The position numbers were made by a program, and so were the translations under genes. Positions 3,977 through 22,097 of a stretch of DNA of 22,892 bases are shown in pieces. This DNA is from a virus. Location of the stretch: positions 1 to 22,892 of IMG/VR virus record IMGVR_UViG_3300035670_001300, one strand, 5' to 3'. How positions within the stretch are numbered: position 1 is the stretch's first letter; each line of letters begins with the position of its first letter. The notes under the pieces are model-generated. The model searched no databases. It saw nothing but the letters and a program-made list of their open reading frames with translations, and was not told where the DNA came from.

Positions 3977-5427
3977 GAGCGCACCACCTTGGATGTAATA
4001 TCCCGTAGTGTGATAGACCCGGACAGCGGTGCGTCCTGATATGTCCATGTGTTCTGAATACCGCTGACTTCCTCGGGTATTTCAAGAATGTTGAAACATC
4101 TTATTGGAACGTAGACAAGGTGCGGGTAATACTCGCTGAAAGCCGTGCTGTATATCCGGCCCTTGTGCCATGCTAATACGGCCTCGACACCACCGGAAGT
4201 CTTTGCCCAAAATAAAAATGATTCGTCATTACGGTATGGATATATACTGCCGGAAACAATATAATTCTGATACAATACCCAAGCATTACCCGAATTAAGA
4301 AACGAAAACAAATCACCTTCACCATCCTCGATATCTTTTCTCCACAGGATGAAATAGTCGGTGTCATCGAAATACTTGAGACTGTCATCAATCTTGCGGT
4401 TATCCTGGAATGACAAGCTGTAAAATTGGGTCTTGATATCGCCATACAGCTTGCGGTATGTTCTTTTGATTGACGTAATTATAAAATCGGTTGTGAAATA
4501 GTTACCGGTTGCGCTGATGGTTGATGTTGTCAATTTCCATTCACCGTCTATTATCTGCTGACCTTCTAAATATGGCTTAATTCTATAATTTGTGTTTGGA
4601 TACTCAAATGTCCATGTATCGGTGTATAATATATAATCCTCTGTTGTCTTTGTTACGTCGGGATTGAAATATGGTGAGTTTTCTAATTTACAGTTTAGAT
4701 AGTTTATATTGGACGGGTTGGCAACAGAATGTCCCCAATCTGCACTATCAAAATCTTTTATAATGCAGTTTTTAAAAGTTAAATCTGCTGTAGCTGTTAT
4801 TGCAATTCCATAAATATATGTTGCTCCTGATTCTAAAGTGAATCGGCAGTTCTCTACTATTTCGGATCCACCAGGGAATGTTAGGTCTATTGTTCTGTCA
4901 CCTCCGGCTGTTACTGTTGCTGTAACACATGATATTTTCGTATCTTTTAATTCTGCTATGCTGTATGTCAATTTTACACTATTGCCAAGCAGTCTAATAT
5001 TACTATTCAAAAACCGTAAATTAGTCAATCCGGCTGTGCCTACTTGAAAATCAATCCATCTGAATGTCACTTTGTCATAATTTCCGCTTGATGTAAAAGT
5101 AAATGTGAGTGTGTCAGTATGGCTTGTATAAATGTATCCAGCGTTTATCCTAACTACACCTGTTATAATAACTGAAGTTGCACCACTTATGGCTGAAGTT
5201 GCTACAGACTTTGTACCTGATGGAGTGCTTGACCATACAATTATTTTTTTACCTGTTATTACTGGTATATCTGCACTACCGGCAACGGATTGCACACTAT
5301 AACCTTCTGATTCGTATTCAGCTATAATACGCTCAATGTCTTCGATTCTGTTTTCTATATTTTCTTCAGTCCAAAAGTCTTTTTTCTGTTTGTTCATTAT
5401 CCGTGCTGTTTTGCTGTTGTATATCAT
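3973..5427 (-). CDS. Distal tail protein with beta-helix-like region (484 residues)
   Basis: The gene starts at the ATG at 5427, overlapping the tape-measure stop as ATGA with AGGCGGG just upstream. It occupies the slot where siphoviruses normally encode the distal tail (Dit) protein. Residues about 14-45 form a charged helix (WTEENIENRIEDIERIIAEY). Residues about 110-250 contain short repeated strand turns such as LTNLRFLNSNIRLLGNS, CRFTLESGATYIYGI and LTFKNCIIKDFDS, a pattern of right-handed parallel beta-helix proteins used in receptor-binding spikes. The C-terminal part is aromatic-rich and ends ITLRDITSKVVRS. The DNA for the N-terminal half is visibly more AT-rich than that for the C-terminal half, which suggests mosaic origin. 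It could be a Dit variant, a spike, or both; I cannot decide. Confidence 0.6.
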   Translation of the reverse strand: MIYNSKTARIMNKQKKDFWTEENIENRIEDIERIIAEYESEGYSVQSVAGSADIPVITGKKIIVWSSTPSGTKSVATSAISGATSVIITGVVRINAGYIYTSHTDTLTFTFTSSGNYDKVTFRWIDFQVGTAGLTNLRFLNSNIRLLGNSVKLTYSIAELKDTKISCVTATVTAGGDRTIDLTFPGGSEIVENCRFTLESGATYIYGIAITATADLTFKNCIIKDFDSADWGHSVANPSNINYLNCKLENSPYFNPDVTKTTEDYILYTDTWTFEYPNTNYRIKPYLEGQQIIDGEWKLTTSTISATGNYFTTDFIITSIKRTYRKLYGDIKTQFYSLSFQDNRKIDDSLKYFDDTDYFILWRKDIEDGEGDLFSFLNSGNAWVLYQNYIVSGSIYPYRNDESFLFWAKTSGGVEAVLAWHKGRIYSTAFSEYYPHLVYVPIRCFNILEIPEEVSGIQNTWTYQDAPLSGSITLRDITSKVVRS

Positions 5428-7226
5428 AATCCCGCCTGTAATAATGCGCCTGATATCGCTTTTTCCAATGTCTGTCCGCTTGCCTCGTTTACTTCTATGT
5501 TCATGGAGCCAATCTGAATTCCTGTTATACCAAGTCCTGACAGTATTTCCGACTGGTCTGCACCTGATATTCCACGGGCTTCAAGCTGTCTCATCACTGA
5601 GCGCTGTCCGTAGATATTTTCGGGGTCAATCAGGCCGTATTCAGAGTATTTATTGATAATGTCATTTATTATACCGAGCCTTTCTTTATAGGCATCGTTA
5701 CCATCTTTGACGGTCTTTGTAAGCGATTCTTCAAAGCTGACATAATCGGTCAGAATTGAAAATATTTCCTGTGCGCCTTCGGAGCCGTATAACTGCGACA
5801 TAGTATCATACTGTTCGTATAGTCTGATAAGACCCTCTGACCCTGCGCCATAGTTGGTTATCTGCCCTATCAATCCGGTAACGTCTCCACGTTCAGCTTG
5901 ATTGAAAAATTCTTCAATTGCCTGATTAAGTCTTGTCTGTGCTTTGGCACGTTCTTCTTTTGCTGTGAAATTATCTCCAGTGAGAAATTTGGGGTCACTT
6001 ATGAAGTTTGCGAGGGTGTATTTGGATTCAAGAGCCTGGTTCTCAATGGCTAATATCTGGTCTTGTAATATGCTTTTCTGTGATGTCTGTAACCTCTGTC
6101 TCTGTGAGTCTGACAGATTGAGGCCCATAAGTGATGAATAATAGGACGCTTTATTATTAAGGTCTGCCTGTAGCCTGTTAAGTTCCTGTAATGCACTTGC
6201 CTGATCCCACAGCTTATCATTAGTACCTGTTACACGGTCATAAATATCTTTTCCAGTTCTTACCCATATATCAATAATGCCCGATAATATGCCTGTAATT
6301 GCACCGCCTACGTCACCGCTTAAGAGGTCGGTAATAATACCTATGCTATTATTCATTTTGTCAAGTTCGTCCGATGACATGCCGAGTTTTTCAGCCATGT
6401 CAGAAAGCAAGGGTATCATGCTTGTCAATAAGTTTATTGATTCTTGTTGTTGCTTTTTCTGTTTTTCAAATTCTTTCGTCTGTTCTTTTGACCAGTTATT
6501 AATATTTGTGTTATAAGTTTCTTGTGCAAGGCTTTTTTCATCTTCTAATTTTTTTTGTATTTTTAATTCTTTATTTACTTTTTTCTGTAGTTCCTCAAGC
6601 ATTTTTAGTCTGTTTATTTCATTCTCGTCAGCCGTCTTTTTTTTACCTGCTTTTTTTTCCTGTTCTATTTTCGTATTAAGTATTCCATATAATTCTAAGG
6701 TTAAATTGTCATATAATAATCGTTGTGTTTGTTCGCCTTCTAACCTGTATCTCTTTTCTAATCTAATAGCATATTCGTACATTTCAAATATTTGTGAGGA
6801 TGATTTATCTTTTAATCTTTCTGCTAATCCTGTACCTGTTAGTTTTTCTGTTGCTAATAATTCTGTCTCTGATTCTGCTGAAGTCCTTCCACCTGTTGCA
6901 ATACTCATTAGATTCTGCATTGCGGGTGCAAGTCCTTGTCCGATTTTTATTTTCGCTATTTCAAGCTGCGTATTGTAAGATGCCATAGTATCTGCCATTT
7001 GCTTATTGGCTGACATTACTTTTTTTGCACCATCCATTGCAAAAGTAAAAAACTTACCAAGAGCCATTATGCCAATATCTACAAGTTTTGACATCCCAAA
7101 TGCTTCAAATAATTTCCCTTGAACTTTTTTTGCTTGCTGTTCAATGAAATCAGTTTGTTTTTTTACGCTATTTTTATCTGTTTTTATTTCCACATTATAG
7201 TAATAATCTGCTATCTTTTCAGCCAT
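5424..7226 (-). CDS. Tail tape measure protein (600 residues)
   Basis: This is the longest mainly helical protein in the tail region and lies directly after the probable chaperone, overlapping it by 8 bases. The N-terminus (VEIKTDKNSVKKQTDFIEQQ) and the amphipathic segment FGMSKLVDIGIMALGKFFTF are typical of tape measures. Residues about 200-260 form a lysine/glutamate-rich coiled coil, followed by a hydrophobic stretch (IGIITDLLSGDVGGAITGIL) that may enter the host membrane. The C-terminal half is again helical. Tape measure length sets tail length; with the accepted rule of about 1.5 angstrom per residue, 600 residues would predict a tail near 90 nm. No lysozyme or peptidase insert is seen. 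Confidence 0.85.
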   Translation of the reverse strand: MAEKIADYYYNVEIKTDKNSVKKQTDFIEQQAKKVQGKLFEAFGMSKLVDIGIMALGKFFTFAMDGAKKVMSANKQMADTMASYNTQLEIAKIKIGQGLAPAMQNLMSIATGGRTSAESETELLATEKLTGTGLAERLKDKSSSQIFEMYEYAIRLEKRYRLEGEQTQRLLYDNLTLELYGILNTKIEQEKKAGKKKTADENEINRLKMLEELQKKVNKELKIQKKLEDEKSLAQETYNTNINNWSKEQTKEFEKQKKQQQESINLLTSMIPLLSDMAEKLGMSSDELDKMNNSIGIITDLLSGDVGGAITGILSGIIDIWVRTGKDIYDRVTGTNDKLWDQASALQELNRLQADLNNKASYYSSLMGLNLSDSQRQRLQTSQKSILQDQILAIENQALESKYTLANFISDPKFLTGDNFTAKEERAKAQTRLNQAIEEFFNQAERGDVTGLIGQITNYGAGSEGLIRLYEQYDTMSQLYGSEGAQEIFSILTDYVSFEESLTKTVKDGNDAYKERLGIINDIINKYSEYGLIDPENIYGQRSVMRQLEARGISGADQSEILSGLGITGIQIGSMNIEVNEASGQTLEKAISGALLQAGL

Positions 7227-7749
7227 TTCTTTTCCTCGGTTTTATGTGTTTGACTCTATCAAGTGCTTCAGCGGTGCTCATGTGTGTCTCGGTGCCGTCT
7301 AATAATCGGTTCAGTTCTCCGGGGTTATGTTGTACCAAGGCAAGTTTATTCAGCCACATCTTCTCCCGTTTCAGTATGGCCTTGGTCAGTTCCTCGGCTT
7401 GGAATATGTCCACGTTCTCAAGGATATAATCTATCGTCCATCCGTAGGAATGGCAGAGCAGGTCAATGAATGTTGCTATGTGGTTCGTCTGCTCGCCTTC
7501 TGTTTCTTCTGCCTTTGTCTGTTCGGTGTGCCGGACGTTGAAATCTATTACACCCCGGATGATATACTCATATTTACCTTTCAGTATATAGCGCACTTTC
7601 GGCTTGATATTGGTATATGTTTCCAGTATCCATGCCTTTTCAGAGGCTGTCACTTCAGGCTTTTTGATGATGTTTGTGAGCCGGATGAAATACCCTATTC
7701 CCCGTCGGTAGTATTCTACACCGTCAATGCTTATCTTTTTTAACAGCAT
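7219..7749 (-). CDS. Probable tail assembly chaperone (176 residues)
   Basis: The protein lies immediately before the tape measure gene, the usual place for tail assembly chaperones, and has the expected helical C-terminal half (IDLLCHSYGWTIDYILENVD, then QAEELTKAILKREKMWLNKL). The start at 7749 follows AGAGGTG and overlaps the end of the glycosyltransferase gene by 26 bases. I found no second overlapping frame that would indicate the programmed frameshift product common in lambda-like phages. The assignment rests on position and general composition. Its coding sequence contains a near copy of the 21-bp repeat found before the portal and tail tube genes (7582-7596). Confidence 0.5.
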   Translation of the reverse strand: MLLKKISIDGVEYYRRGIGYFIRLTNIIKKPEVTASEKAWILETYTNIKPKVRYILKGKYEYIIRGVIDFNVRHTEQTKAEETEGEQTNHIATFIDLLCHSYGWTIDYILENVDIFQAEELTKAILKREKMWLNKLALVQHNPGELNRLLDGTETHMSTAEALDRVKHIKPRKRNG

Positions 7750-8782
7750 TCAACACCTCTTCCCACATGTGGTAATTCTTGTCTATGTCATACCGTTCCA
7801 TTACATATTGCCGTGCGTTCTGCCCTATATGGTGCCGGAGTTCCTCGTTGCCTATGAGGTCCATGAGAGCCTTTTTCCAGTCTTTGAAGCGGTCGCTGAC
7901 CTTAAACCCTGTTTTACCCTGTTCGATTTCCTTGTATGGCTCCATGTCTGATGCTATAGTTGGTATGCCCATGGCAGAATACTCAAGGAATTTTATATTG
8001 CTTTTTGAACGGTTGAATATATTGTCTGCAAGCGGAATAATACCTATATCAAACTCTGCAAGTGATTGCCCGAAACCGTCCGGGCTCTGCCATCCGTCTG
8101 ATATTACTTTATGCTGTAAATGTTTGAACTCATCGAACTTACCGAAGTTCTCACCGACAAATTTAACGTAAACGTTCGGCATGGTCTCGAGGATGTGGAC
8201 TAAGGCATCCACGCAGACGGCAAAGTCGCCAAGATGCGACGAAGATCCGGCCCATCCTATCACAACCCGCCCATCTTTTTCTGCCATCACTCTCTGTCTG
8301 CTCTTATAATGCCTGTTCCAAACGCTGAAGTCAAGGCTGTTCGGTAGAACATAAACGGGTGCTTTAGTGTACCGTCGCATTTCGGTCGCAAGGTACTCGG
8401 TTGATACCGTAAGTGCGTCCACGTTGCGAATGTAATCCATCATATTGTCCTTCACGTTTGGAGTTAGATTATAGGCCTTGTGCGCCATGATATTTGTAGG
8501 CTCGATGTGGAAAAGGTCATCGTCTATTTCATAGATGCATACGGTACCGTGCTGTTTGGCCCACAGCATGTTGTTAAACACTGGTGCAAGGTACTGTCTC
8601 TGCAATATCATTACCTCGGGAATGCTTTTAATGTCCTCTGCATACATGGTGCCGGTAATCTTAACCCCCGGTATCCGATTATACGGCAGTTTTATTCGAT
8701 AATATCCGCACCCGCCATCGTCAGCCTGGAACGCTAAAAATTTCCAATTTCTTTCGTCTGCCTTGATTGCCTTGAATCCCAT
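7724..8782 (-). CDS. GT-B fold glycosyltransferase, GT4-like
   Basis: This 352-residue enzyme probably transfers a sugar from a nucleotide-sugar donor. The C-terminal half carries the GT4-type hallmarks: VVIGWAGSSSHLGD at about 173-186 beginning the second Rossmann domain, and FNRSKSNIKFLEYSAMGIPT at about 256-275 followed by IASDMEPYKEI, where the S/K and E residues bind the donor. The N-terminal half contains FQADDGGCGYYRIKLPY and IYEIDDDLF, as in glycosyltransferases of phage and surface-polysaccharide loci. No membrane segment is present, so it acts in the cytoplasm. It is the last of a three-gene cassette between the tail tube and chaperone genes. The acceptor could be a virion protein or a host glycan; context favours the virion but does not prove it. 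Confidence 0.82.
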   Translation of the reverse strand: MGFKAIKADERNWKFLAFQADDGGCGYYRIKLPYNRIPGVKITGTMYAEDIKSIPEVMILQRQYLAPVFNNMLWAKQHGTVCIYEIDDDLFHIEPTNIMAHKAYNLTPNVKDNMMDYIRNVDALTVSTEYLATEMRRYTKAPVYVLPNSLDFSVWNRHYKSRQRVMAEKDGRVVIGWAGSSSHLGDFAVCVDALVHILETMPNVYVKFVGENFGKFDEFKHLQHKVISDGWQSPDGFGQSLAEFDIGIIPLADNIFNRSKSNIKFLEYSAMGIPTIASDMEPYKEIEQGKTGFKVSDRFKDWKKALMDLIGNEELRHHIGQNARQYVMERYDIDKNYHMWEEVLNAVKKDKH

Positions 8783-8791
8783 ATAAACCCC

Positions 8792-9529
8792 TTATATTTT
8801 GTGCCTGAACATGATTATCGAATCCTTGTAATATGCCGTGCTATCATCCAGTGTCACGCCATACGGCACCGGAAAATGTCCATGAGTATGGAAATCATAG
8901 TCTGCTATGACCGGCTGAAACAGGAGGTTGATTATGCATGACAGAAGAAACTGCTGTTTGGCATAGTGCCCGAGTACATTATCAATCATATGCCAATGAT
9001 AGTTATAAGCCTTGTATATGCCTTTCCAGTCCTTTACTGATGCAGTTAGAACCCCGGTATTATAGCATGGCAGAAAATCCATCTCACCGCAGAAATACTC
9101 GTTTATGACACTGATATCATCTTTACTTTCAAGTCTTGACCATTCCCGGCTCATGGTATCGTGTTCTCCGGCATTATAAGAGCATATTACAGACCCGTCC
9201 TGAAGGCTGTCAATATATCCACGTTCCTCTGCTGTAAGTCCTCTCTGCATGAGTATATCTGCATCCGTAAATATTACTTTATCATCATCAGGCAGTTGTA
9301 AGAACTCAAGCCATCCCCCATGTTGTATGCATCCGTTTATGTTCGGGCTTTTGACCTTTGTACTGTCACCTCGGACGAATCGAATTGTTTTATATCGGTG
9401 CCTTAACTCGCTGTCATAGTCAAGTGTAATCACAATGTTGTTCATATTAGAGTTATGCTCAATGCTGTCAAAGTACGGTTTTGCCTTTTCCTCGTAGTTC
9501 TTTGTTATGGCTGTTACCAAGTGTATCAT
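8792..9529 (-). CDS. GT-A-like glycosyltransferase (DxD motif)
   Basis: This 245-residue protein looks like a nucleotide-sugar transferase of GT-A fold. The N-terminal MIHLVTAITKNYEEKAKPYF resembles the start of GT8-like enzymes, and the metal- and nucleotide-binding DxD motif is visible as VIFTDADILMQ with D89-A90-D91. A His-rich C-terminal segment (FHTHGHFPVPYG) may complete the donor site. The gene overlaps the preceding methyltransferase by 4 bases and has the leader AAGGGGATTGTATG, identical to that of the methyltransferase gene, which suggests the two were acquired together. Substrate and acceptor are unknown. With the downstream GT-B enzyme it could add a two-step glycan. Confidence 0.72.
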   Translation of the reverse strand: MIHLVTAITKNYEEKAKPYFDSIEHNSNMNNIVITLDYDSELRHRYKTIRFVRGDSTKVKSPNINGCIQHGGWLEFLQLPDDDKVIFTDADILMQRGLTAEERGYIDSLQDGSVICSYNAGEHDTMSREWSRLESKDDISVINEYFCGEMDFLPCYNTGVLTASVKDWKGIYKAYNYHWHMIDNVLGHYAKQQFLLSCIINLLFQPVIADYDFHTHGHFPVPYGVTLDDSTAYYKDSIIMFRHKI

Positions 9530-10077
9530 ACAATCCCCTTTTCTAAAAAAATTGTTACATTTTTTTTATTTACAATAATTTTAGAAATACTATCTTTGTG
9601 TTTTTCTATAATCTTATCTATCGTTTGAGTAACTACCGGTATATCATGTTTGTAATCATGGAAAGATACCCATCCGCCAATAACAGTATTGCTCCAAGCT
9701 GTTTTAAAGTCTGCATTAACATGTTTCTCATCATGGTTTCCATCGATAAAAGTAAAACATAATGGTGTTTTATGTTTATATTTTATCGAATCGATTATAT
9801 GTAATCTTATATTATCATAATGTTTTGTATTTTCTTTAAACTGTTCTAATTGAGTTCCATTTTTTAGCTTTAAGAATTTTTCATAAAGCATTGTATTATC
9901 AGGGTCAGATGATAACTCGAACGGATCAACAGTATCAATTATTTTTTTACTTACTTTTGCAAGTTCTGCCGTCCCTTCACCAGTAAATGTACCAATCTCA
10001 AGAAAACCGCCCGACATATCATTTATATTTTTTTCTTTTATAAAATCGGTAAGTATCTTATAATTTGCTAATGGCAT
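9526..10077 (-). CDS. Class I SAM-dependent methyltransferase (Methyltransf_24-like)
   Basis: The 183-residue protein has the SAM-binding motif GGFLEIGTFTGEGTAEL at 23-39 and the later acidic motif FTFIDGNHDEKHV at 108-120 followed by GGWVSFHDY at 134-142, as in small-molecule and sugar methyltransferases of the Methyltransf_24 / cephalosporin hydroxylase-like group. It begins the glycosyltransferase cassette, so methylation of a sugar is a reasonable inference. The coding DNA is strikingly AT-rich compared with the neighbouring tail genes, which points to recent acquisition. The start at 10077 has AAGGGG upstream. DNA methylation is unlikely because the NPPY/DPPY signature of DNA amino-methyltransferases is absent. 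Confidence 0.78.
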   Translation of the reverse strand: MPLANYKILTDFIKEKNINDMSGGFLEIGTFTGEGTAELAKVSKKIIDTVDPFELSSDPDNTMLYEKFLKLKNGTQLEQFKENTKHYDNIRLHIIDSIKYKHKTPLCFTFIDGNHDEKHVNADFKTAWSNTVIGGWVSFHDYKHDIPVVTQTIDKIIEKHKDSISKIIVNKKNVTIFLEKGIV

Positions 10078-10102
10078 ACAATCCCCTTAAAAAAATAAAT
10101 TT

Positions 10103-10126
10103 CCCCGGCAGTTTGACCCACCGGGG
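10103..10126 (-). terminator. GUCAAA-loop hairpin after tail tube gene (terminator-like)
   Basis: On the minus strand, CCCCGGTGG and CTGCCGGGG pair with two G-U wobbles, closing the hexaloop GTCAAA. It is followed by AAATTTATTTTTTT, a T-rich tract, and then the Shine-Dalgarno of the methyltransferase gene. It fits a partial intrinsic terminator that would lower expression of the accessory cassette relative to the tail tube. A second hairpin of the same design lies after the capsid gene. Confidence 0.72.
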
Positions 10127-10145
10127 TTGAGAGGTTCCATGTCTA

Positions 10146-10775
10146 TCAAGCCGTAGCTGTGAAAGATCCAAAATATGCCTTGTATCCTTCCGCTGACCCG
10201 CTACCGGTATTGGCAAGTGCACGGAACTCAAGGGTGATAAGGTCTCTTTCATTGTTCCATGTCATACCGGCTTCAGATACAGGAACAGCATTGAAAACTA
10301 TCCATGTGAACGGGTCTGCCGTTACTGCCGGGGTATCGGTTTCGTTTGTCGGGTCGGTGTTCTTGTTGTATATCAGGAATGACATTCCTTTCGTGCCGAG
10401 CAGAGAGCCCCTGCTTTCCTTGTCGCCCATTGCTCCAGTTGTTCCGGTAGTGCCAAGGTTGAAAACATTAAGGCTCTGTAGTTCTGCCAATCCAGTTGCT
10501 GAAAGGGTCACACGCAGTGTGCTGTTCTCACGGTCAACAGAAACATCTACCACGCCAAGCTGTTGGTTTTCGATATCGCTTGTTTCCCTGCCTTTCATGT
10601 AGCTGACACCGCCGTCACCAGTATATAGCTGGTACCATCCGCTTGTTGCTATCTTACCGGACGTTACTACGGCATTACAATCTGCGTCCGAAAGTTTGGT
10701 CACATTCCCGGAACCATCGGTCTTGACGAATATCCTTGCTATCGGTTTCTTTTCCGCTGTCCTTGTATATCCCAT
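10146..10775 (-). CDS. Probable major tail tube protein (209 residues)
   Basis: The gene has the position (after the tail-completion gene and before chaperone and tape measure), size and strand-rich composition of a tail tube protein. The N-terminus MGYTRTAEKKPIARIFVKTD is followed by Gly/Thr/Ser-rich strands, and the end reads GYKAYFGSFTATA. GAGGT lies upstream of the ATG at 10775. A 21-bp repeat also found before the portal gene sits in the short upstream gap, and a terminator-like hairpin follows the stop, both consistent with a highly expressed gene. No sheath gene is present next to it, as expected for a siphovirus. The identification is by context; I saw no diagnostic motif. Confidence 0.65.
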   Translation of the reverse strand: MGYTRTAEKKPIARIFVKTDGSGNVTKLSDADCNAVVTSGKIATSGWYQLYTGDGGVSYMKGRETSDIENQQLGVVDVSVDRENSTLRVTLSATGLAELQSLNVFNLGTTGTTGAMGDKESRGSLLGTKGMSFLIYNKNTDPTNETDTPAVTADPFTWIVFNAVPVSEAGMTWNNERDLITLEFRALANTGSGSAEGYKAYFGSFTATA

Positions 10776-10792
10776 TACATTACCTCATCTGC

Positions 10793-10813
10793 TTTTTCCA
10801 GTATATAGCGCAC
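10793..10813 (-). repeat. 21-bp direct repeat, copy before tail tube gene
   Basis: The minus-strand sequence GTGCGCTATATACTGGAAAA plus one further A is identical to 16228-16248. Here it occupies the gap between the tail-completion stop codon and the Shine-Dalgarno of the tail tube gene. Shorter matches (TGCGCTATATA core) occur inside genes at 7585-7595 and 13687-13697. Confidence 0.8.
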
Positions 10814-10814
10814 A

Positions 10815-11219
10815 TTACACGCTGAACTGGTATTCAATCTCTATCAATGCCGTTCTGCTCGTGCCGGTGTTCTCCAATACGCTGTCAATGCTGATAATCT
10901 CACCGCCCTGCGTGTCTGTTGTCAGACGGTAGTTCTCAAGGATGTTCAACACACCCTTTGCCAGTTCCAGGTTGTTGAGTTCGTCGGTGGTCTGCGATTG
11001 CAGGACAATTACTATATTGACCATCCAGTCACCAAGTTCCCGGACGTTATCCGGCAGGATCTCCAGTATCTTGATGACCGCATTCGGGTAAGCACCCGCT
11101 TTGCCGAGGTCTGCATAGTCGGTGGAAACCATGTTATAGGTTCCAAGTGCTTCAACCCGTGTCTTGATATTGCCGAGTACTGCCTGTATTGCATCGACTT
11201 TCTGTTGGTATGTGTTCAT
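10815..11219 (-). CDS. Probable tail completion / tail terminator protein (134 residues)
   Basis: This small mixed alpha/beta protein follows the HK97 gp10-like gene with a 4-base overlap and precedes the tail tube gene, the usual position of the tail terminator protein that caps the tube and joins it to the head. It starts with a helix (YQQKVDAIQAVLGNIKTRVE) and has strands including WMVNIVIVLQSQ and TALIEIEYQFSV, as in that family. No catalytic motif is expected. The call comes mainly from gene order in HK97-like siphophages. Confidence 0.55.
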   Translation of the reverse strand: MNTYQQKVDAIQAVLGNIKTRVEALGTYNMVSTDYADLGKAGAYPNAVIKILEILPDNVRELGDWMVNIVIVLQSQTTDELNNLELAKGVLNILENYRLTTDTQGGEIISIDSVLENTGTSRTALIEIEYQFSV

Positions 11220-11659
11220 GCTTTCGCTCCCATTTGTTTGGCCTTCACAAGCCTGCGTATTACACGTCTGAAGGCTTCCTCACTTTCCCGGATAGAATCC
11301 CGCATGAAAGGCCTTAATATCTTGCCTCTCCATGCCGGATTTGCCTGTTTGTACACGTTGACTTGGTACTTTTCCTGTTTTTTCGTTGCCTTGAAATATG
11401 CTTTCCGGCCTGTTTCATATGCTACACCGTAAGGCATCCGTGTGCCGACAATCAATCGGCTGTTTTTGTAGTCTATCACGGCTCCGGTTGTTCTGCGTAG
11501 CTGTCCAGTTCTCACACCAAGATATCCACCATCAAGTTTACGGTATATGCGCTTCACGATATCAGCCTTGAGGTATTTCAAAAAAGTTTCCTCGTTGGAT
11601 GACAGCACCTTGAGCAGGTCTTGAGCCATGGCACCCTGTGCAAACGGTTTAGATGCCAT
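11216..11659 (-). CDS. HK97 gp10-like head-tail joining / minor tail protein
   Basis: The ATG at 11659 (MASKPFAQGAMAQDL) overlaps the end of the connector gene and gives 147 residues; a longer frame to 11695 is less likely because it would overlap more, and codon ATG at 11629 is a further option with CAGGG upstream. Features shared with HK97 gp10-type proteins are visible: GVRTGQLRRTTG, MPYGVAYETGRKAYF, and near the C-terminus RPFMRDSIRESEEAFRRVI. Such proteins act at the head-tail junction. The protein is strongly basic, in keeping with a role near packaged DNA. Confidence 0.68.
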   Translation of the reverse strand: MASKPFAQGAMAQDLLKVLSSNEETFLKYLKADIVKRIYRKLDGGYLGVRTGQLRRTTGAVIDYKNSRLIVGTRMPYGVAYETGRKAYFKATKKQEKYQVNVYKQANPAWRGKILRPFMRDSIRESEEAFRRVIRRLVKAKQMGAKA

Positions 11660-12203
11660 CGTAATTATAGTACCTGAACAGCTTGTCCATGGCATTCTGT
11701 CTCATGGTGCTTGCATCGTTCCATGAGATGTTGATATCACCGAGAATCTGATTGCCTACATAACCGGCTTTATCTTTATTGTACTGCTTCACGTACTCGT
11801 AGACCACAAGGTCAAGAACTACCTCGGCAAGTATTCGCTCAAGGTCGGACGGACTGTAGTCGAGGCAGATTAACCGGCCTGCCTGTGTCGGGTAATAGAA
11901 TCGATTCTTTTCGACCTGTGTGATGTTGGTCGTAGCGTTGCTATCCGTAGCCCATGCGGTGCCAGTCCAGTACTTTGCTGTGTTAATTTCAATCGTGTTC
12001 CACCGGGAGCGAACATAGAACATGCCGGCACTATCCACCTGACATTTTTCGGTAATACATTCTGCATTATCACCATGGCTGTGGGTCTCAAAGTACTGCA
12101 ATGGTAATGATGCGTATGCGGATTTGATGTAATCCTCAATCTTTGTGTCATCCCCGGTGCCGGATATGTTCAGCACCGTCTTGACTTCGCTGACCTCAAG
12201 CAT
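11649..12203 (-). CDS. Head-tail connector protein, gp6-like (184 residues)
   Basis: The N-terminus MLEVSEVKTVLNISGTGDDT followed by KIEDYIKSAYASL is the characteristic start of gp6-like connectors, which form a ring below the portal. The C-terminal part is helical (DLERILAEVVLDLVVYEYVK) and ends NAMDKLFRYYNYDGI. Between these lies a strand-rich insertion of about 80 residues (roughly 38-120) that is larger than in the shortest family members. The gene overlaps the upstream 73-residue gene by 8 bases and the downstream gp10-like gene by 11 bases. Confidence 0.68.
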   Translation of the reverse strand: MLEVSEVKTVLNISGTGDDTKIEDYIKSAYASLPLQYFETHSHGDNAECITEKCQVDSAGMFYVRSRWNTIEINTAKYWTGTAWATDSNATTNITQVEKNRFYYPTQAGRLICLDYSPSDLERILAEVVLDLVVYEYVKQYNKDKAGYVGNQILGDINISWNDASTMRQNAMDKLFRYYNYDGI

Positions 12204-12417
12204 AGTTAAAATCCTCGCCTTCCTTCATGTTGCGGAGTTCCCGGCTGTCCTTTGGCAAGGTGTAGGTTCTACCGGGGTCGTAGACGGAACCGAATATAGA
12301 ATACCTTTTCAGAGCGATGATTTTAACGGTCTGCTGTTCCATTTCCTTGCGCTCAGGCTTCATAGGTTCGGGCTTTTTCTCTGCCATTACTTTATGTTCG
12401 GGTTTCTTTACTGCCAT
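12196..12417 (-). CDS. Small hypothetical protein after the major capsid gene (73 residues)
   Basis: The gene has a clear AGGAG 7 bases before its ATG and is placed between the capsid and connector genes. Residues 1-27 are a highly charged, proline-rich tail (KKPEPMKPERKE), and residues 28-73 look like a small beta domain (VKIIALKRYSIFGSVYDPGR). Small proteins in this position can be capsid decoration or head-joining factors, but no motif settles this. It lies just downstream of a hairpin that could reduce its expression relative to capsid. Confidence 0.62.
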   Translation of the reverse strand: MAVKKPEHKVMAEKKPEPMKPERKEMEQQTVKIIALKRYSIFGSVYDPGRTYTLPKDSRELRNMKEGEDFNYA

Positions 12418-12439
12418 GTTATGCTCCTTTAATAATATT

Positions 12440-12463
12440 CCCCGGATGTTTGACCATCCGGGG
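12440..12463 (-). terminator. GUCAAA-loop hairpin after major capsid gene
   Basis: On the minus strand a 9-bp perfect stem CCCCGGATG/CATCCGGGG closes the hexaloop GTCAAA. It is followed by AATATTATT and then AAAGGAG, so the U-tract is poor and termination would be partial at best. The stem-loop shares its ends and loop with the hairpin at 10103-10126. It may act as a 3' end or stability element of the capsid mRNA. Confidence 0.72.
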
Positions 12464-12491
12464 CGGGGGCTATATGGAGAAGTTTATAGGG

Positions 12492-13562
12492 TTAAGATCC
12501 GGTTGCCGTCTTGATAATTGCGAACTGCTTGGCTACCGTCTTGGCATCGATACGCCTCATCATGCGGATAAGGGTCTGATTGGTCGTGAATCCGGCATCG
12601 GTAGAGGTTGCGACCTGTATCGTTCCACGGTCACCGATGAGCAGGCCACGGAAGTCGCCAAAGATACCGAACGAGGTGCCAGTTGCGGAAGCAGAGGAAG
12701 CAGGCATTACACCTGTAGGAGTCCAGTAAACAGGGTAACCCCAAATCCTTTCAACGTCACCGTTTCCGGCAGGCGTCCATATGATATTAGAACCACCGTC
12801 ATTCAGCTTGCGGACATAAGACCGGATAGTCTTGTCGAAAATGAACACAGGGTTGGTAAGGCTTCCGGTAGCAAGGTCAATCATTGCAGAAAGGTCATCA
12901 ACACCGATTCCGCTGAATGCTGTTGAGGTCATCGTGTGTGCTGATACGTTGGCAGTGTTCATGACACCGGTAATACCGCCGTTGGTTGCGTCGAGTGCGC
13001 CGGTTCCCTTAAGGAATGCGTTGTCTTCCCATTTGCCAAATGCACGCATGGCATTCTCTTCAATGAAACGGATTTTCGCAGGGGTGACATCATCGAGGAA
13101 GTTGTTGTCGAACCTCAGGATTGCCCCGACGTTCTTGAGGGACAGCGCATAGTTGGAAGCTGTCAGGTTCTGTTCACCGATGGAGGCGGATCCGGAAACG
13201 TAGCCAACTGAAATGGCGTCGATATCCTGTACGTTCAGAGTGTCGGAAGTCATCGGCAGAACAGTTGCCATCGGGCGGACGATACCGAACGACGGGTTGT
13301 AATTCAGAATGTCGTTTGCCCACTCTTCGGGTACCAGGTAACCACCCTCACCGGCGGTATATTCGTTGATAGACTTTGTGACGACACCTTTCCAAAAGGC
13401 TTTTTTTCGTTCAAATTCGGACTTCTCACGGGTTCCTTCAGTGATGATGCTGACAGCTTTCATCGTTTCCAGTTCTTTCTTCAGATTGTCCAGTTCGCCC
13501 TTAACTGCTGGCAGGTCAGACACGGCCTTTTCGATTGTTTCAAGGCTCTTTTCGAGTTCCAT
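12492..13562 (-). CDS. Major capsid protein, HK97 fold
   Basis: This 356-residue protein directly follows the prohead protease. Residues 1-60 form a charged coiled coil (LETIEKAVSDLPAVKGELDN) that matches the scaffold-like delta domain removed during maturation. The rest fits HK97-type capsid proteins: GEGGYLVPEEWANDIL, then SFGIVRPMATVLPM, a helix with LRFDNNFLDD, and the C-terminal GIFGDFRGLLIGDRGTIQVA with TNQTLIRMMRRIDAKTVAKQ. The gene is one base from the protease stop, and a hairpin follows its stop codon. The start at 13562 has AAAGGAG upstream. The exact processing site cannot be read from the sequence. Confidence 0.9.
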   Translation of the reverse strand: MELEKSLETIEKAVSDLPAVKGELDNLKKELETMKAVSIITEGTREKSEFERKKAFWKGVVTKSINEYTAGEGGYLVPEEWANDILNYNPSFGIVRPMATVLPMTSDTLNVQDIDAISVGYVSGSASIGEQNLTASNYALSLKNVGAILRFDNNFLDDVTPAKIRFIEENAMRAFGKWEDNAFLKGTGALDATNGGITGVMNTANVSAHTMTSTAFSGIGVDDLSAMIDLATGSLTNPVFIFDKTIRSYVRKLNDGGSNIIWTPAGNGDVERIWGYPVYWTPTGVMPASSASATGTSFGIFGDFRGLLIGDRGTIQVATSTDAGFTTNQTLIRMMRRIDAKTVAKQFAIIKTATGS

Positions 13563-13563
13563 A

Positions 13564-14247
13564 TTATTCTCCTTTAATTTTTTTTTCTATCGATTTGAAG
13601 CGTTCCACAATTTCCGGCTTCAGCATTGGCGAGAAACCTTCCCGGCTCTCGATGCCGTCTGCCATCTTCTGTAGACGTTCTGCGATTATATAGCGCATGG
13701 ATTCAGCCTTCGCTTTTTCACTGTTGATTTCATCGGTCAGGCTTTCCACTTTGGCAAGCAGTTCAGCCGTCTGCCGTTCCAGTTGAAAGCCTTTTTTCAC
13801 GAGTGCATACTGGTTGGCTGGAACTGTAACAGCGGATACTTCAAGCAGTTCGCTTTCGTAGACGTCGTACCCTTTCCGCTCCTCATTTCTATTGTAGACC
13901 TTCGGCACAAACTGGATTGAAACTGCATTCATGAAGCCGTTTTCGTACAGGTACTTGTATTCAATGCCATCCTCGGTGTCAGCGAATACTACATCAATCT
14001 CAAGGCTTTTCGGGTCACCATCAAGCATCTTGCGGAATGCGGTAATCTTGCCTATTGGCTTACTTCGAATATTATGGTTGGCAAGGAATACAGGGTTTTT
14101 CTGAATGTTTGCCGTATCGATTCCGCTGATATAGATGATATCGTTATCCCGGTCCGGCAGTTCCACCGATGCAAGGAAGGTAAGCCCATCTTTCCCGGCT
14201 TCGTTTGCTTTGCGTATTGCCTCAAAACTTTTCTTAATCTCTGTCAT
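13564..14247 (-). CDS. Prohead protease, HK97 family (U35-type serine protease)
   Basis: This 227-residue protein matures the procapsid by cutting the capsid delta domain. The family signatures are visible: DRDNDIIYISGID at 32-44, FLANHN with catalytic H58, FMNAVSIQF with catalytic S110, and LLEVSAVTVPANQYAL at about 134-149. After residue 155 the protein continues as a helical tail (QTAELLAKVESLTDEINSEK), perhaps a scaffold-like part. It lies between the portal and major capsid genes, the canonical order, with AAGGAGA before its ATG. Its coding sequence includes one core copy of the TGCGCTATATA repeat (13687-13697). Confidence 0.88.
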   Translation of the reverse strand: MTEIKKSFEAIRKANEAGKDGLTFLASVELPDRDNDIIYISGIDTANIQKNPVFLANHNIRSKPIGKITAFRKMLDGDPKSLEIDVVFADTEDGIEYKYLYENGFMNAVSIQFVPKVYNRNEERKGYDVYESELLEVSAVTVPANQYALVKKGFQLERQTAELLAKVESLTDEINSEKAKAESMRYIIAERLQKMADGIESREGFSPMLKPEIVERFKSIEKKIKGE

Positions 14248-14256
14248 ATATTCTCC

Positions 14257-16212
14257 TTATGGTACCGGTGCGAGTGTGCATCGGCAGTTAATTATTTCGT
14301 CTGCTGTACCGTTCGGGTCTCCGGGGTATTTCAAACCGTTCGGGTAAGTGTCTGATATCGGTATAGTTTTATTACGCTGATCCCAGTGGCTTTTTCTTGT
14401 TTCACCATCTGATGTAGCAATCCATTTTTTCCGAGTGAAACCTTCGGCCTTGTACTGTTCGTCAAGCATTTCGTTTGCTATGCTTCCGATTTCTGTTCGT
14501 GCTATCGTTAATGCTCTGACTTTGGCGTTCTGATATTTCCCATCAATCTGCTGTGCCAGTTCCTGTACCGTCCAGTTTTCACGGGTGGCCTGTTCTGTCA
14601 GGTCGAGGACTTCAGAGCGCACGGTGTTCTGTGGGGTGACCATCCGCAAGCTGTGGTTGACGATTACCTGAGTCATCTTTGCGGATTCCTTGAACGCTAT
14701 GTCAAACTCGGCAAGCTGTGTCATTACAAGGTTCCGCTTGATGTTTTCGAAATTGTCTTCACCTATCTGCTCAATTTCCCGGTCCAGTTTCTCATCATTG
14801 ATGTACTTCAGCACCTTGTCAATGTATACATACAATTCAGTCGTTGCCTTGGCCTCGCTCCGTGACAGGTCTCTGATGTAGTTCCTCTGCCGGACGAAAT
14901 ACTTTTCAATGTCGTTCTGAAACTTGCGCTCTACTTTGCCATGCGCTTTCAGCCATTGATTGCCGAGGTAATCTTCAAACGCCTTTTCAGCTTTCAGCCG
15001 GTACCGTTTCTGCTCATCGGTTTCGATTGGTTCTGTGGTACCTGTGGTCGGTGTGGTCTCTATGCTATCAATGTCGAACGGGATTTCAAGTGCTTCCGTG
15101 ACCGATTGCAGGGAATATCCGATTGCCACCGCATTATAAGCCTGATTCAATGTTTCGGTCAGGTCTGACTTGAGTGCCGACACCATGCTGTAATCATATT
15201 CAAATCGTAATGTCCTGTCAGCGAGCAATTCCTTAGACAGCTTCCCTGCCATGGATGCAAGCAAAGGCTTAATCGTGTTTTCCCAAAAGATTTTGGTCTG
15301 CTCTTTTGCGTTGGCATAGTTGACGGATTCCGTGTAGCCAAGGACTACCGGCGGTACTCCAAGCAGGGAGAATATCTCGCCCTTGCCCATTGTCTTAAGT
15401 GCACTGTACCCCATATCCTTAGGGTTGGCCCCAGTCTGCTGGTATTTCAGACCCTTGCCGAGTATTGCAGTTTTCCCGGCAGAGTCCGCACCACCGAAAC
15501 GATTGTCCCATTCCGAGGACATCAGGTTAATATCCTCTTTCGTCAGTGTCTGCTCGGATGACAGAACGCCCTTGAGTTCCCCGCCTTTCTGCATAAGGGA
15601 TGCGTTGAAGCGGTCAGCATATGAGTTATTGATGATGGAAAACAGGGCATGCTTGATTACGGACGTGCCTTTCAGATAGCTTGCTCCGAAAGTCGAGTCC
15701 TTCCAATGGATGATGTCGTCCCTGGTGTATGTCGTTGCCTTACCGTTAAGCCTGTACTGGTACCGTATCTGATTAGCTACAATCTCCGGTGTGACATTGT
15801 TTGAGTTAATCGGCATCAGGCCGGTAATCGTGTTCCCGGTTTTCAGTTTGAGTATATATGCGTTTCCGTCCCACAGATAGTTGAACAGGACATACTGCAA
15901 GAAGTCCTCATAAGACTGTAGAGGATTCGGGTTCTCAAGCATCATTAGACTTGGGTGGTCAACATATTCCCCTGTTCTGCTGTTCCATACCTTCAGCCAA
16001 GGGATTATGCTGTTCTGTAGAATCTTGCGAATGCTTGAAGCAAGGTAGGTATTATACTCTGCGATTTTTTGCAGTTCATCTAAGTATGCGCTGTCTGAAA
16101 AAGCGCCTATCTGAAAGCCGGTTGTCTGCCAAGTTGGATTACTGACTGACTTGATAATGGTTTCGGTCGTGTGGGTGGCCTGTTTTGCTTTGAATATATC
16201 GGAAAAACCCAT
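14257..16212 (-). CDS. Portal protein (HK97 type) fused to a MuF / SPP1 gp7-like domain
   Basis: The ATG at 16212 (MGFSDIFKAKQ) is preferred over a GTG at 16248; AAGGG lies about 7 bases upstream, giving 651 residues. Residues 1 to about 385 match an HK97-family portal, including LWDGNAYILKLKTG, YLKGTSVIKHALFSIINNSY and FSLLGVPPVVLGYTESVNYA. A Thr/Pro linker (ETTPTTGTTEPIET) at about 384-398 leads to a helical region and then a Mu F / SPP1 gp7-type minor head domain: IARTEIGSIANEML, KKWIATSDGETRKSHWDQRN and the terminal EIINCRCTLAPVP. Usually these are two genes. The portal part forms the DNA channel; the MuF part is an internal head protein. No stop or frameshift separates the halves. Confidence 0.88.
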   Translation of the reverse strand: MGFSDIFKAKQATHTTETIIKSVSNPTWQTTGFQIGAFSDSAYLDELQKIAEYNTYLASSIRKILQNSIIPWLKVWNSRTGEYVDHPSLMMLENPNPLQSYEDFLQYVLFNYLWDGNAYILKLKTGNTITGLMPINSNNVTPEIVANQIRYQYRLNGKATTYTRDDIIHWKDSTFGASYLKGTSVIKHALFSIINNSYADRFNASLMQKGGELKGVLSSEQTLTKEDINLMSSEWDNRFGGADSAGKTAILGKGLKYQQTGANPKDMGYSALKTMGKGEIFSLLGVPPVVLGYTESVNYANAKEQTKIFWENTIKPLLASMAGKLSKELLADRTLRFEYDYSMVSALKSDLTETLNQAYNAVAIGYSLQSVTEALEIPFDIDSIETTPTTGTTEPIETDEQKRYRLKAEKAFEDYLGNQWLKAHGKVERKFQNDIEKYFVRQRNYIRDLSRSEAKATTELYVYIDKVLKYINDEKLDREIEQIGEDNFENIKRNLVMTQLAEFDIAFKESAKMTQVIVNHSLRMVTPQNTVRSEVLDLTEQATRENWTVQELAQQIDGKYQNAKVRALTIARTEIGSIANEMLDEQYKAEGFTRKKWIATSDGETRKSHWDQRNKTIPISDTYPNGLKYPGDPNGTADEIINCRCTLAPVP

Positions 16213-16250
16213 TAGTGCGCCCTTATGTTTTTCCAGTATATAGCGCACTA
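16213..16250 (-). promoter_or_regulatory. Inverted repeat spanning terminase stop and portal start
   Basis: On the minus strand TAGTGCGC (16250-16243) and GCGCACTA (16220-16213) form a perfect 8-bp inverted repeat around a 22-nt loop. The first arm begins with the terminase TAG stop, and the second arm ends directly at the portal ATG. The portal Shine-Dalgarno (AAGGG) is partly inside the second arm. Folding would hide the portal start and could couple its translation to terminase translation. Confidence 0.6.
16228..16248 (-). repeat. 21-bp direct repeat, copy before portal gene
   Basis: This copy is identical over 21 bp to 10793-10813 and begins within the terminase stop codon. It forms one arm and part of the loop of the inverted repeat described at this junction. 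Its GTGCGC part pairs with GCGCAC near the portal start. Confidence 0.8.
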
Positions 16251-17465
16251 TATGAGGTAGATTTTCGGCCTGTCCTCGGTGGCATCCTGTTCACATGCAT
16301 ACCTTATGGCATCAATGGCATGGTTGAAATTATCGCTGTATTTCCCGGCAATGTTTACCCCGTTCCGGTCTTTCTTATGGCTGTAGTTTTCAAACTCTGT
16401 AATGATATTGGTTGATGATGCGGTTATATATATCTTTTTCCCCTGTAGCCATTCCACACCATGCCGGATTGAATCAGGGCCCTTTTTCACAGGCTGTGCA
16501 GGTATGCCTGCCCGTTGTATCTCGTCAATGGTTCGCAGTTCCGCAGAGTCACACCACAGGACATCGGTGATATCCATGGCCTTCAGTTCGGATATAAGCC
16601 CGGATGTCGGCAGGCCGGTTTCATACAGCAGTTCGTTGATGTACAGGTTATTTCCGTCAAGGTAGCATTCCACCATGGCACACGGGTCAACCGAGAATCC
16701 GAAGTCAAGGCCGAGCCGTCTGCGTTTCAATCCATCGGGAAGGCTTTCGATAATCTGCCAATTTTTGAAGACCTGGTTCTCAGGGTCTGAAAATTCCCCA
16801 TGCAGAAACCGTCTTTGTTTTTCCTCTGACAGATTCCGCAGGGTCTCAAGAAACTCGTCGTCAATGTTTTCTGCGTTGTCCTGTGGGTTCATCTGAAGGT
16901 TTCTGTAATACTCCGTCCTGACCGGTGTGCTTTTCAGCGGGTGCAGACCTTTCACGAACAGCTTGTAAGACCAATGAGTTGTGCCCGGTGGATTGCAGTC
17001 ATACCACAGACGATTCGAGCATCCCGGCACCTTGTATGACAGACGGGTCTGCACGGTCTCCACCGTGTCATATGGTATTTCGGATATTTCGTTGAAATAG
17101 ATAGTATTGTATTCCCGGCCAAGTATCTTTTCTACTCTTATCTTATCGTCAAGGCCGTCACACCATATTTCAGCCCCGTTGTAGAACCGAATGAAAAGGT
17201 CAGATTCATATTTCTGATATATGGTGGCCGGTATAGACAGGACGGACAGAACCGCAGGGATGGTTTCCATCCATATACTTTTCTTAATGTGCTTGAAGTG
17301 TTTTCTTAATATGATATGTCTGCTTTTCGGGTGCTTCAATGCCCGAATGACAAGTGACATAACGAATATAAACGTCTTGCCTGACCTTGCCCCGCCATAC
17401 AGAAACACGTTGCGGTAATTGCGGATAAGGTCAACTGCCTTTTTTTGCTTTTCGTTCAGCTTCAT
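16248..17465 (-). CDS. terL: Terminase large subunit (PBSX/Terminase_3-like)
   Basis: The 405-residue motor protein packages DNA into the prohead. The ATPase has Walker A GGARSGKT at 24-31 and a Walker B-like strand TIYFNEISE at 121-129, where the usual Asp before the catalytic Glu is Asn. The nuclease domain begins at GLDFGFSVDPCAMV (D254) and continues with LWCDSAE (D306) and SDNFNHAIDAIRYA (D378/D384). Length is normal for this family. The start overlaps the preceding zinc-finger gene by 35 bases, with only a weak GCGGAA upstream, suggesting translational coupling. It ends in TAG at the inverted repeat before the portal gene. Confidence 0.93.
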   Translation of the reverse strand: MKLNEKQKKAVDLIRNYRNVFLYGGARSGKTFIFVMSLVIRALKHPKSRHIILRKHFKHIKKSIWMETIPAVLSVLSIPATIYQKYESDLFIRFYNGAEIWCDGLDDKIRVEKILGREYNTIYFNEISEIPYDTVETVQTRLSYKVPGCSNRLWYDCNPPGTTHWSYKLFVKGLHPLKSTPVRTEYYRNLQMNPQDNAENIDDEFLETLRNLSEEKQRRFLHGEFSDPENQVFKNWQIIESLPDGLKRRRLGLDFGFSVDPCAMVECYLDGNNLYINELLYETGLPTSGLISELKAMDITDVLWCDSAELRTIDEIQRAGIPAQPVKKGPDSIRHGVEWLQGKKIYITASSTNIITEFENYSHKKDRNGVNIAGKYSDNFNHAIDAIRYACEQDATEDRPKIYLI

Positions 17466-17928
17466 TTTTTTTCCGCTTGCGGTATTCCCGGTAATACTCT
17501 GCCGTTCCCGGTTTTGGCTTTTCGGGTTCCGCTATCTCTACCGGTTCATTCTTTTCACATTCCGGGCAGACGTAACGATAATCTGCATCATAACATCCAT
17601 TGAAATACAAACGATAAGACTTACCACAGATTGAGCAGTAAGGTCTAAGGATTATTTTCATTGATTCGCTGACTTTTTGCAAATCCTGCTTAATCTGCCT
17701 TGACAGGTACTCCACCTTATAGTGGTGCATATCATACCGCATGGCAATTATAATCCATTCGGATACGATGTCAGCGGTTCTGTCGTAGTCCATGGACGGC
17801 AAATTCTTTTTCACCATGGACGCGACGAGTCCACGCAGTTCATAATAGTCCGGCTCTTTGATATTACGCTGTTTTAAGTCTGTGATGAATCGGTATACCT
17901 TATGGCTGATTGTGCTGTCAAATTCCAT
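17431..17928 (-). CDS. Zinc-finger-like protein between the terminase genes
   Basis: The ATG at 17928 follows AGGGAG at good spacing and gives 165 residues; a TTG one codon earlier is less likely. The first 95 residues are helical (IVSEWIIIAMRYDMHHYKVE and LSRQIKQDLQKVSESMKIIL). Residues 97-125 contain two cysteine pairs, CSIC and CPEC, separated by 23 residues, a probable four-cysteine zinc site. The basic C-terminal tail (YYREYRKRKKNEAERKAKKG) may contact nucleic acid. The gene lies between small and large terminase subunits and overlaps both, so a role in DNA recognition during packaging is plausible, but no known family was recognised. Confidence 0.68.
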   Translation of the reverse strand: MEFDSTISHKVYRFITDLKQRNIKEPDYYELRGLVASMVKKNLPSMDYDRTADIVSEWIIIAMRYDMHHYKVEYLSRQIKQDLQKVSESMKIILRPYCSICGKSYRLYFNGCYDADYRYVCPECEKNEPVEIAEPEKPKPGTAEYYREYRKRKKNEAERKAKKGS

Positions 17929-18442
17929 CAAACTCCCTGCCGATGTTAATTTGTATGTTCGTTTGGTTGTGGATGTTGTCCATGCCGTCTAACTTCTGTA
18001 TGTTCATTTCAGCCGATGCTGATAACTGAGTGAGTGCCCGGACGTCTATAATGACGGATTCACCGTTGCGGTATCGGTCGTAATCATCCTTAAGTTTCAT
18101 CAGGATTAGTGCATCGGCAATTTTCTTCTTTTGCATTTCAGCCCGACGGCGTTCTGCTATGTCGGATGATATCGCTTCCTTGATTTCCTGTTCGGTTTCG
18201 GATTTCTTATCATTCGCAACAGATACTGCAAGGTTTCTACCCGCTTGGAATAATGCTTCCCACTGGTTATCTTTTGCCCATTTTCCGATAGTTGACTGGT
18301 TAATTGTTTTTTTATATTTTTTTCTAATTTCATCGGAAATTTTTTGCAGTGTGTGAAGACGTTTGCCGTTCTCATCGGCAAGCAGATAGAGGCTTTGAGC
18401 ATATTCTATTAATCGGCGTTTTTTTTCTGTTGCAGTCATCAT
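17918..18442 (-). CDS. terS: Terminase small subunit
   Basis: The ATG at 18442 overlaps the previous stop as ATGA and gives 174 residues; the longer reading would begin with GTG. The N-terminal part holds a helix-turn-helix, ISDEIRKKYKKTINQSTIGK followed by WAKDNQWEALF, which matches PBSX-type small terminase subunits that bind the packaging site. The centre is a charged helix (IAERRRAEMQKKKIADALIL) suited to ring assembly, and the C-terminus ends NIQINIGREFDGI. It precedes the large subunit by one intervening gene. The identification is strong by motif and context; the packaging site is not located. Confidence 0.8.
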   Translation of the reverse strand: MMTATEKKRRLIEYAQSLYLLADENGKRLHTLQKISDEIRKKYKKTINQSTIGKWAKDNQWEALFQAGRNLAVSVANDKKSETEQEIKEAISSDIAERRRAEMQKKKIADALILMKLKDDYDRYRNGESVIIDVRALTQLSASAEMNIQKLDGMDNIHNQTNIQINIGREFDGI

Positions 18443-18618
18443 ATTTTCCACTTTTTCATATATGCATACCCCTGTTTGCTCTCGTCATCATCAGGGTCAT
18501 TGAATCCGCTGTATACTCCGCATGGGTATGGTGTGTTGACCTGTGGACAAGTATCCGGGATGCATCCACGGCAATCTTTTTTCCGCATGGCCTTTTGTGC
18601 TTTCAGATGTTTCGTCAT
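18439..18618 (-). CDS. Small cysteine-containing hypothetical protein (59 residues)
   Basis: The start at the ATG at 18618 is chosen because it overlaps the upstream stop as ATGA. The product begins MTKHLKAQKAMRKKDCRGCI and contains four cysteines (CRGC, then TC and PCG), consistent with a small zinc-binding protein. The C-terminal half is acidic and aromatic (SGFNDPDDDESKQGYAYMKK). It overlaps the small terminase gene by 4 bases. The family is not recognised. Confidence 0.6.
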   Translation of the reverse strand: MTKHLKAQKAMRKKDCRGCIPDTCPQVNTPYPCGVYSGFNDPDDDESKQGYAYMKKWKI

Positions 18619-18977
18619 CCTATCACCTCGCCTTTGGATGTGTCCGTTGTCCATTCTATTTCACTGTACTGCATTTCATCGCCTTTCCGCTCTACCCTTA
18701 CCATGCATTTCGGGTCGGTGAAAATCAGGTTAATCGGTTTGTGGTCTTCTAGTATGTGCAGTTCACAGCCTTGAGGGAACAGTATATCTATTATGGTTTC
18801 CTCGCTCATCAGATTAGTGAGTATATCAGCCTTGACCTTCCCGTGCCGGAACGGCTCTAACATGTAGTACGTCTGCTGTGCAAGCGGTCTGCATTCGTGG
18901 CATTGAGTTTTGACCCATTCTCCTGTTTTGCCGTAAAGGAAGTCAGCTACCTGCCGGTTCAGTGCAATCCGTTTCAT
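18615..18977 (-). CDS. Hypothetical protein (120 residues)
   Basis: This gene overlaps both neighbours by 4 bases (ATGA), which supports the start at 18977. The protein begins MKRIALNRQVADFLYGKTGE, has a CHEC motif at about residues 26-29 and a single further cysteine pair far apart (C71, C90), and is otherwise a mixed alpha/beta sequence with strands such as CELHILEDHKPINLIFTD and MVRVERKGDEMQYSEIEW. No catalytic motif was recognised. It sits between the deaminase and terminase genes and may belong with the nucleotide-metabolism genes or with packaging; the sequence does not decide. Confidence 0.65.
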   Translation of the reverse strand: MKRIALNRQVADFLYGKTGEWVKTQCHECRPLAQQTYYMLEPFRHGKVKADILTNLMSEETIIDILFPQGCELHILEDHKPINLIFTDPKCMVRVERKGDEMQYSEIEWTTDTSKGEVIG

Positions 18978-21201: not shown

Positions 21202-21316
21202 GATGGATATTATTATTCTCGGTGGTATTATCCAGTAACAGTGTTAATCAACCCCTGTCAGTATGTCGTGGTAGCCGAGAACTACCGTGATAGAAAGCGG
21301 GGGTTTTATTATTTTT
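21202..21316 (+). ncRNA. Structured leader RNA 1 (pseudoknot, AGUA/GAAA loop, terminator)
   Basis: From the 5' end: TTCTCGG (21216-21222), a 27-nt linker, AACCCC (21250-21255), AGTA (21260-21263), an 11-bp helix (21264-21274 with 21282-21292), loop CCGAGAA (21275-21281), GAAA (21293-21296), GC, GGGGTT (21300-21305) and TTATTATTTTT. The loop is fully complementary to TTCTCGG, giving a 7-bp pseudoknot. AGTA facing GAAA is the bulged-G (sarcin-ricin) signature. Leader RNA 2 has the same elements in the same register. The RNA ends immediately before AAAGGAG of the downstream gene. Confidence 0.72.
21250..21316 (+). terminator. Intrinsic-terminator-like helix of leader RNA 1
   Basis: AACCCC pairs with GGGGTT around the structured interior and is followed by TTATTATTTTT. 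It would stop transcription just before the Shine-Dalgarno of the KilAC gene unless the fold is changed. Confidence 0.65.
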
Positions 21317-21329
21317 AAAGGAGATGCAT

Positions 21330-22087: not shown

Positions 22088-22097
22088 GGAGGTAAAA

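Follow-up and report, generated by a model that had tools for sequence, protein, structure and literature searches.

Two near-identical coding-strand hairpins after the capsid gene and the probable tail tube gene of a virus: a candidate mRNA step-down element

Tailed phages need their capsid and tail tube proteins in hundreds of copies and the connector, chaperone, and tape measure proteins in far fewer. In the record of phage HK97 (NC_002167), putative terminators are annotated after the major head gene (5192-5213) and after the major tail gene (7443-7462). In SPP1, predicted terminators lie at 8775-8815, where the capsid gene ends at 8777, and at 11255-11304, where the extended tube gene ends at 11279 (PMC6316719), and one follows the major tail gene in cluster O mycobacteriophages (PMC4351075). 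The arrangement is already known in HK97-type phages; two near-identical copies of a hairpin at the two places in one genome, as described here, are mildly unusual.

The window, that is, the whole stretch of DNA analyzed, is an entire IMG/VR virus record of 22,892 bases (IMGVR_UViG_3300035670_001300). On its minus strand, the late genes form a packed block that runs from the terminase, portal (with a fused Mu F-like domain), prohead protease, and HK97-type capsid genes through the connectors to a gene in the tube position, then through a glycosyltransferase/methyltransferase cassette to the tail genes. The major capsid gene (12492-13562, minus strand; 356 amino acids [aa]) is certain from its matches to PF05065 (E 6e-37), TIGR01554 (E 2e-45), and phrog_10. 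It is followed on the same strand by a small gene (12196-12417; 73 aa), a head-tail connector gene (11649-12203; Phage_connect_1, barely over the curated cutoff), and a gene for a tail completion or HK97 gp10-like protein (11216-11695; phrog_5). The 209-aa product of the tube-position gene (10146-10775, minus strand) is the probable tail tube protein by gene order only, the order capsid, connectors, gp10-like protein, tail terminator, and tube matching Bcep176 and HK97. This protein matched no family and no solved structure, and a single-sequence structure model was useless (pLDDT 34). The preliminary description, which placed the hairpins after the genes of the two most-needed products, is thus certain for the capsid and, for the tube, stands on gene order.

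Hairpin 2 (12440-12463, minus strand) lies in the 74 nt that separate the capsid gene from the 73-aa gene. In the coding-strand reading from 12463 to 12440, it is CCCCGGATGGTCAAACATCCGGGG, which folds as CCCCGGAUG-GUCAAA-CAUCCGGGG and is followed by AAUAUUAUUAAAGGAG. Hairpin 1 (10103-10126, minus strand) lies between the tube-position gene and a methyltransferase-like gene, which are 68 nt apart; read from 10126 to 10103 it is CCCCGGTGGGTCAAACTGCCGGGG, which folds as CCCCGGUGG-GUCAAA-CUGCCGGGG and is followed by AAAUUUAUUUUUUUAAGGGG. These gaps are the two longest in the otherwise overlapping block from 3973 to 18977, in which no other gap exceeds 39 nt. Both hairpins are 24 nt long, share the GUCAAA loop, and are identical at 20 of 24 positions, in agreement with the preliminary description. 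The pattern CCCCGG-N3-GTCAAA-N3-CCGGGG, with up to three mismatches allowed, occurs in the window only at these two sites and in none of 100 dinucleotide shuffles of it.

As minus-strand RNA, each hairpin has a 9-bp stem with seven G-C pairs and a 6-nt loop, and the folding energies (-18.3 kcal/mol for hairpin 2 and -17.0 kcal/mol for hairpin 1) make them the two most stable simple hairpins of that strand. All four differences between the copies fall in two adjacent stem pairs and are compensated, A-U and U-A in one copy being U-G and G-U in the other, as had been noted before. The compensation holds only as coding-strand RNA: read from the plus strand, hairpin 1 loses two inner pairs to C-A mismatches and folds at only -10.2 kcal/mol. 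When four random changes were made to hairpin 2 in a simulation, all nine pairs survived in 2.8% of cases, and the pairs together with the loop survived in 0.2%. Because the differences are compensated and the pairing is lost on the opposite strand, these data support the view that the element kept is an RNA structure transcribed from the coding strand.

The stems satisfy the intrinsic-terminator requirement of at least five pairs, rich in G+C. However, a U-rich tract directly after the stem is absent at both sites, where AAAUUUAUUUUUUU and AAUAUUAUUA have tail scores of -2.3 and -2.2; in the tail of hairpin 1 three A's precede the U's, and AAUAUUAUUA is that of hairpin 2. Because the U-tracts are weak, neither hairpin appears to be a canonical strong terminator. 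An Rfam scan of the window gave no match at the gathering score and, elsewhere in the region, only a chance-level match (E 4.5).

No close relative was found among viral contigs with the capsid, tube, and portal proteins or among genome contigs with the terminase. The terminase matched 20 viral contigs at roughly 36 to 44% identity, none of which contained any other gene of the window in tblastn searches. The search of related phages that the preliminary description had proposed was therefore run on distant relatives. Among ten phages first fetched by a match to the window capsid protein, most gaps were short, and a strong hairpin was present after the capsid gene in one (Burkholderia phage Bcep176) and after the tube gene in one (a Christensenellales phage, after the major tail gene). 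A second set of ten annotated HK97-type phages consisted of HK97 and HK022 together with eight others selected among matches to the capsid protein of HK97 or of the window. All ten have a strong hairpin (-12 to -42 kcal/mol) between the capsid gene and its downstream neighbor, and seven have a strong hairpin after the tube gene, or after the gene in its position; these are not unbiased frequencies, the set having been picked partly by capsid similarity to HK97. In Mcat23, CF183a, and GBK2, the tube position is not annotated and was assigned by gene order.

The hairpins of HK97, HK022, Bcep176, GBK2, SPP1, and others occupy the same positions, and their stems and loops are unrelated, differing across phages and also between the two sites of one phage; several, for example the hairpin that follows the HK97 tail gene, have no U-tract. 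HK97 shares with this virus the gene order, the place after the capsid gene and, as judged from gene order, the place after the tube gene, and strong short hairpins just before the next gene, whereas its two hairpins (loops GAAA and UUGU) are mutually dissimilar and its gaps measure 33 to 34 nt, compared with 74 and 68 nt here. In SPP1, the predicted terminators after genes 13 and 17.1* likewise sit right at the capsid and tube gene ends (PMC6316719), but they have long U-tracts, and their sequences and loops are unrelated. Bcep176 (NC_007497), the top-listed capsid match among annotated phages, has a 73-nt gap between its capsid gene and gp75 in which a hairpin is followed by a U-rich tract and a ribosome site, as in this virus; however, its hairpin has a GGGGCGUC stem, a 3-nt loop, and a better U-tract, and no strong hairpin follows its tail gene.

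We consider it likely that the pair is a duplicated mRNA step-down element, a leaky terminator and/or a 3'-end barrier, by which capsid and tube mRNAs become more abundant than the mRNAs of downstream genes. Each hairpin would close a message segment for an abundant virion protein, the capsid protein in the case of hairpin 2 and the tail tube protein in that of hairpin 1. The hairpin in the coding-strand RNA would (i) partly stop RNA polymerase and/or (ii) block 3'-to-5' exonucleases once the A/U-rich spacer has been cleaved. In either case, capsid and tube messages would outnumber those of the connectors and of the downstream chaperone and tape measure genes. The step-down function, which covers leaky termination and 3'-end protection alike, is the probable one; a complete stop is disfavored because the U-tracts are weak and essential genes lie downstream. 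Speaking against the step-down element are the weak U-tracts, the assignment of the tube gene by gene order, and how uncommon such hairpins are in the first set of ten phages.

In another reading, which we regard as unlikely, the hairpins are efficient canonical intrinsic terminators closing two transcription units, and each unit begins at a copy of an exact 21-nt direct repeat, GTGCGCTATATACTGGAAAAA, one copy being ahead of the portal gene and the other ahead of the tube gene. The repeat does sit after the terminase gene and ahead of the tube gene, and the hairpins rank as the top two in a terminator scan. Against this reading, the U-tracts are weak, essential genes follow although neither hairpin gap contains a recognized promoter, a -35 box cannot be recognized in the repeat, and terminator-like sites are no more frequent in the window than in shuffles.

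The repeat itself is found at 10793-10813 and 16228-16248 (both minus strand), in each case right after the upstream stop codon, and in none of 100 shuffles. It is possibly a late promoter (TATACT). Copies of its 15-nt core with one mismatch occur inside genes at 13683 and 7581. Past the terminase stop codon and ahead of an ATG that is possibly the real portal start (16210-16250, minus strand), the 21-nt repeat has an 8-nt inverted repeat, TAGTGCGC and GCGCACTA, on its two sides.

The preliminary description took the identical loops to go beyond what a terminator requires and to suggest recognition by a protein, or a shared mRNA stability or processing element. An RNA element consistent with mRNA stability, processing, or termination agrees with our data; protein recognition of a conserved loop found no support. 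By combinatorics, four random changes in 24 positions leave a six-base loop untouched 29% of the time; with pairing of the stem required, the figure is about 7% (the ratio of the two simulation values). Two copies with four differences are thus weak evidence, and the identity of the loops is at most a hint. Most simply, the shared loop would reflect duplication, or conversion, of one element; with two copies related in this way, it needs no further assumption.

That an RNA-binding protein of the phage or the host recognizes GUCAAA and coregulates both places, as a regulator of antitermination or translation, is quite improbable in our estimate. The loop and the outer six pairs are indeed identical while two inner pairs changed with compensation, and all four changes would have missed the loop only about 7% of the time given the required pairing. 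However, the same places in other phages carry unrelated loops, even within one genome (GAAA and UUGU in HK97), about 30 unrelated genomes or viruses contain the full motif, each a single time and never as a set, and neither an Rfam match nor a candidate partner was found. GUCAAA does not appear to be a general recognition site, because stems and loops at the same places in other phages differ freely. Homologous sites with unrelated hairpins and varying loops had been named beforehand as the observation that would speak against recognition, and this is nearly what the distant relatives show. A two-site regulon restricted to this virus, with capsid and tube expression adjusted jointly by a single RNA-binding protein that reads the loop, for example through feedback from free capsid or tube protein, seems to us very doubtful. 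A reading modeled on lambda boxB was dropped, given that the loop has six bases and the sites lie in late genes. A literature search that included the term GUCAAA found no use of it.

A search for the 18 fixed bases of the motif gave 4 viral stretches, 2 of which are near-identical around the motif, and 29 stretches of bacterial genomes from many phyla; each such genome has one to three copies of a shorter form. The inner stem is fully paired in only 13 of these 33 stretches, and T-rich DNA follows the motif in 10, as at ordinary terminators. The motif was rejected as a widespread family, given this scatter over phyla and the number of incompletely paired inner stems. Two virus contigs (L003 and L004), retrieved by searching for the hairpin motif itself, have a terminator with the same loop, CCCCGGCGGGTCAAACTGCCGGGG, one base off hairpin 1, but there it is a single copy at an unrelated gene, with the CTTTTTT tail of a plain terminator.

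Could the hairpins instead serve the genes downstream, as 5' caps left by processing or as elements that influence ribosome binding? Each ends shortly ahead of a start codon: the ATG of the 73-aa gene lies 22 nt past hairpin 2, with an AAAGGAG ribosome site between, and that of the methyltransferase-like gene (9526-10077, minus strand; PF13578, 28% G+C) lies 25 nt past hairpin 1. The succession of hairpin, A/U tract, ribosome site, and ATG is conserved at both places and in Bcep176. Across phages, however, the shared context is the class of the upstream gene (capsid or tube), whereas the downstream gene differs, here the 73-aa gene and the methyltransferase cassette, and a downstream role is very unlikely. 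That the hairpins are DNA-level palindromes (operators or recombination sites) rather than RNA elements is scarcely credible despite the inverted-repeat symmetry, as two of the nine positions of hairpin 1 pair only as G-U in coding-strand RNA, which breaks the DNA palindrome.

Further features of the window were recorded alongside. The cassette directly after hairpin 1 (7724-10077, minus strand), inserted amid tail genes, comprises a glycosyltransferase gene, a gene for an unassigned 245-aa protein, and the methyltransferase gene; in Pseudomonas phage PP9W2, the head-tail region contains an inserted pair of glycosyltransferase and methyltransferase genes. Two neighboring cassette genes have the same 14 nt, CATACAATCCCCTT, ahead of them (9527-9540 and 10075-10088; start codon and ribosome site, in reverse complement). 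On the plus strand, the leaders of an antirepressor-like (KilAC) gene (21250-21320) and an HTH_36/DnaD-like gene (22025-22092) resemble copies of one structured RNA, with the layout CCCC...AGUA...stem-loop...GAAAGC.GGGG and a T-run directly ahead of the ribosome site (z about -3.1 each). Their AGUA/GAA internal loop points to a loop E motif, and their layout to a leader of the terminator type; they had no Rfam match, and viral contigs scanned with a strict pattern gave no hit. A perfect 22-nt palindrome, TTTGTCCAAACGTTTGGACAAA, lies at 667-688 in the short gap between an M15 peptidase gene and the next gene.

To return to the step-down element, the hairpins probably help this virus to make its capsid and tube proteins in larger amounts than their neighbors. 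Hairpins after the capsid and tube genes recur in distant HK97-type phages, yet several lack a proper U-tract. A pair with compensated changes in one genome provides good evidence for retention of the coding-strand RNA structure, and it offers a clean test object for whether virion protein ratios may be set via termination or via protection of mRNA ends.
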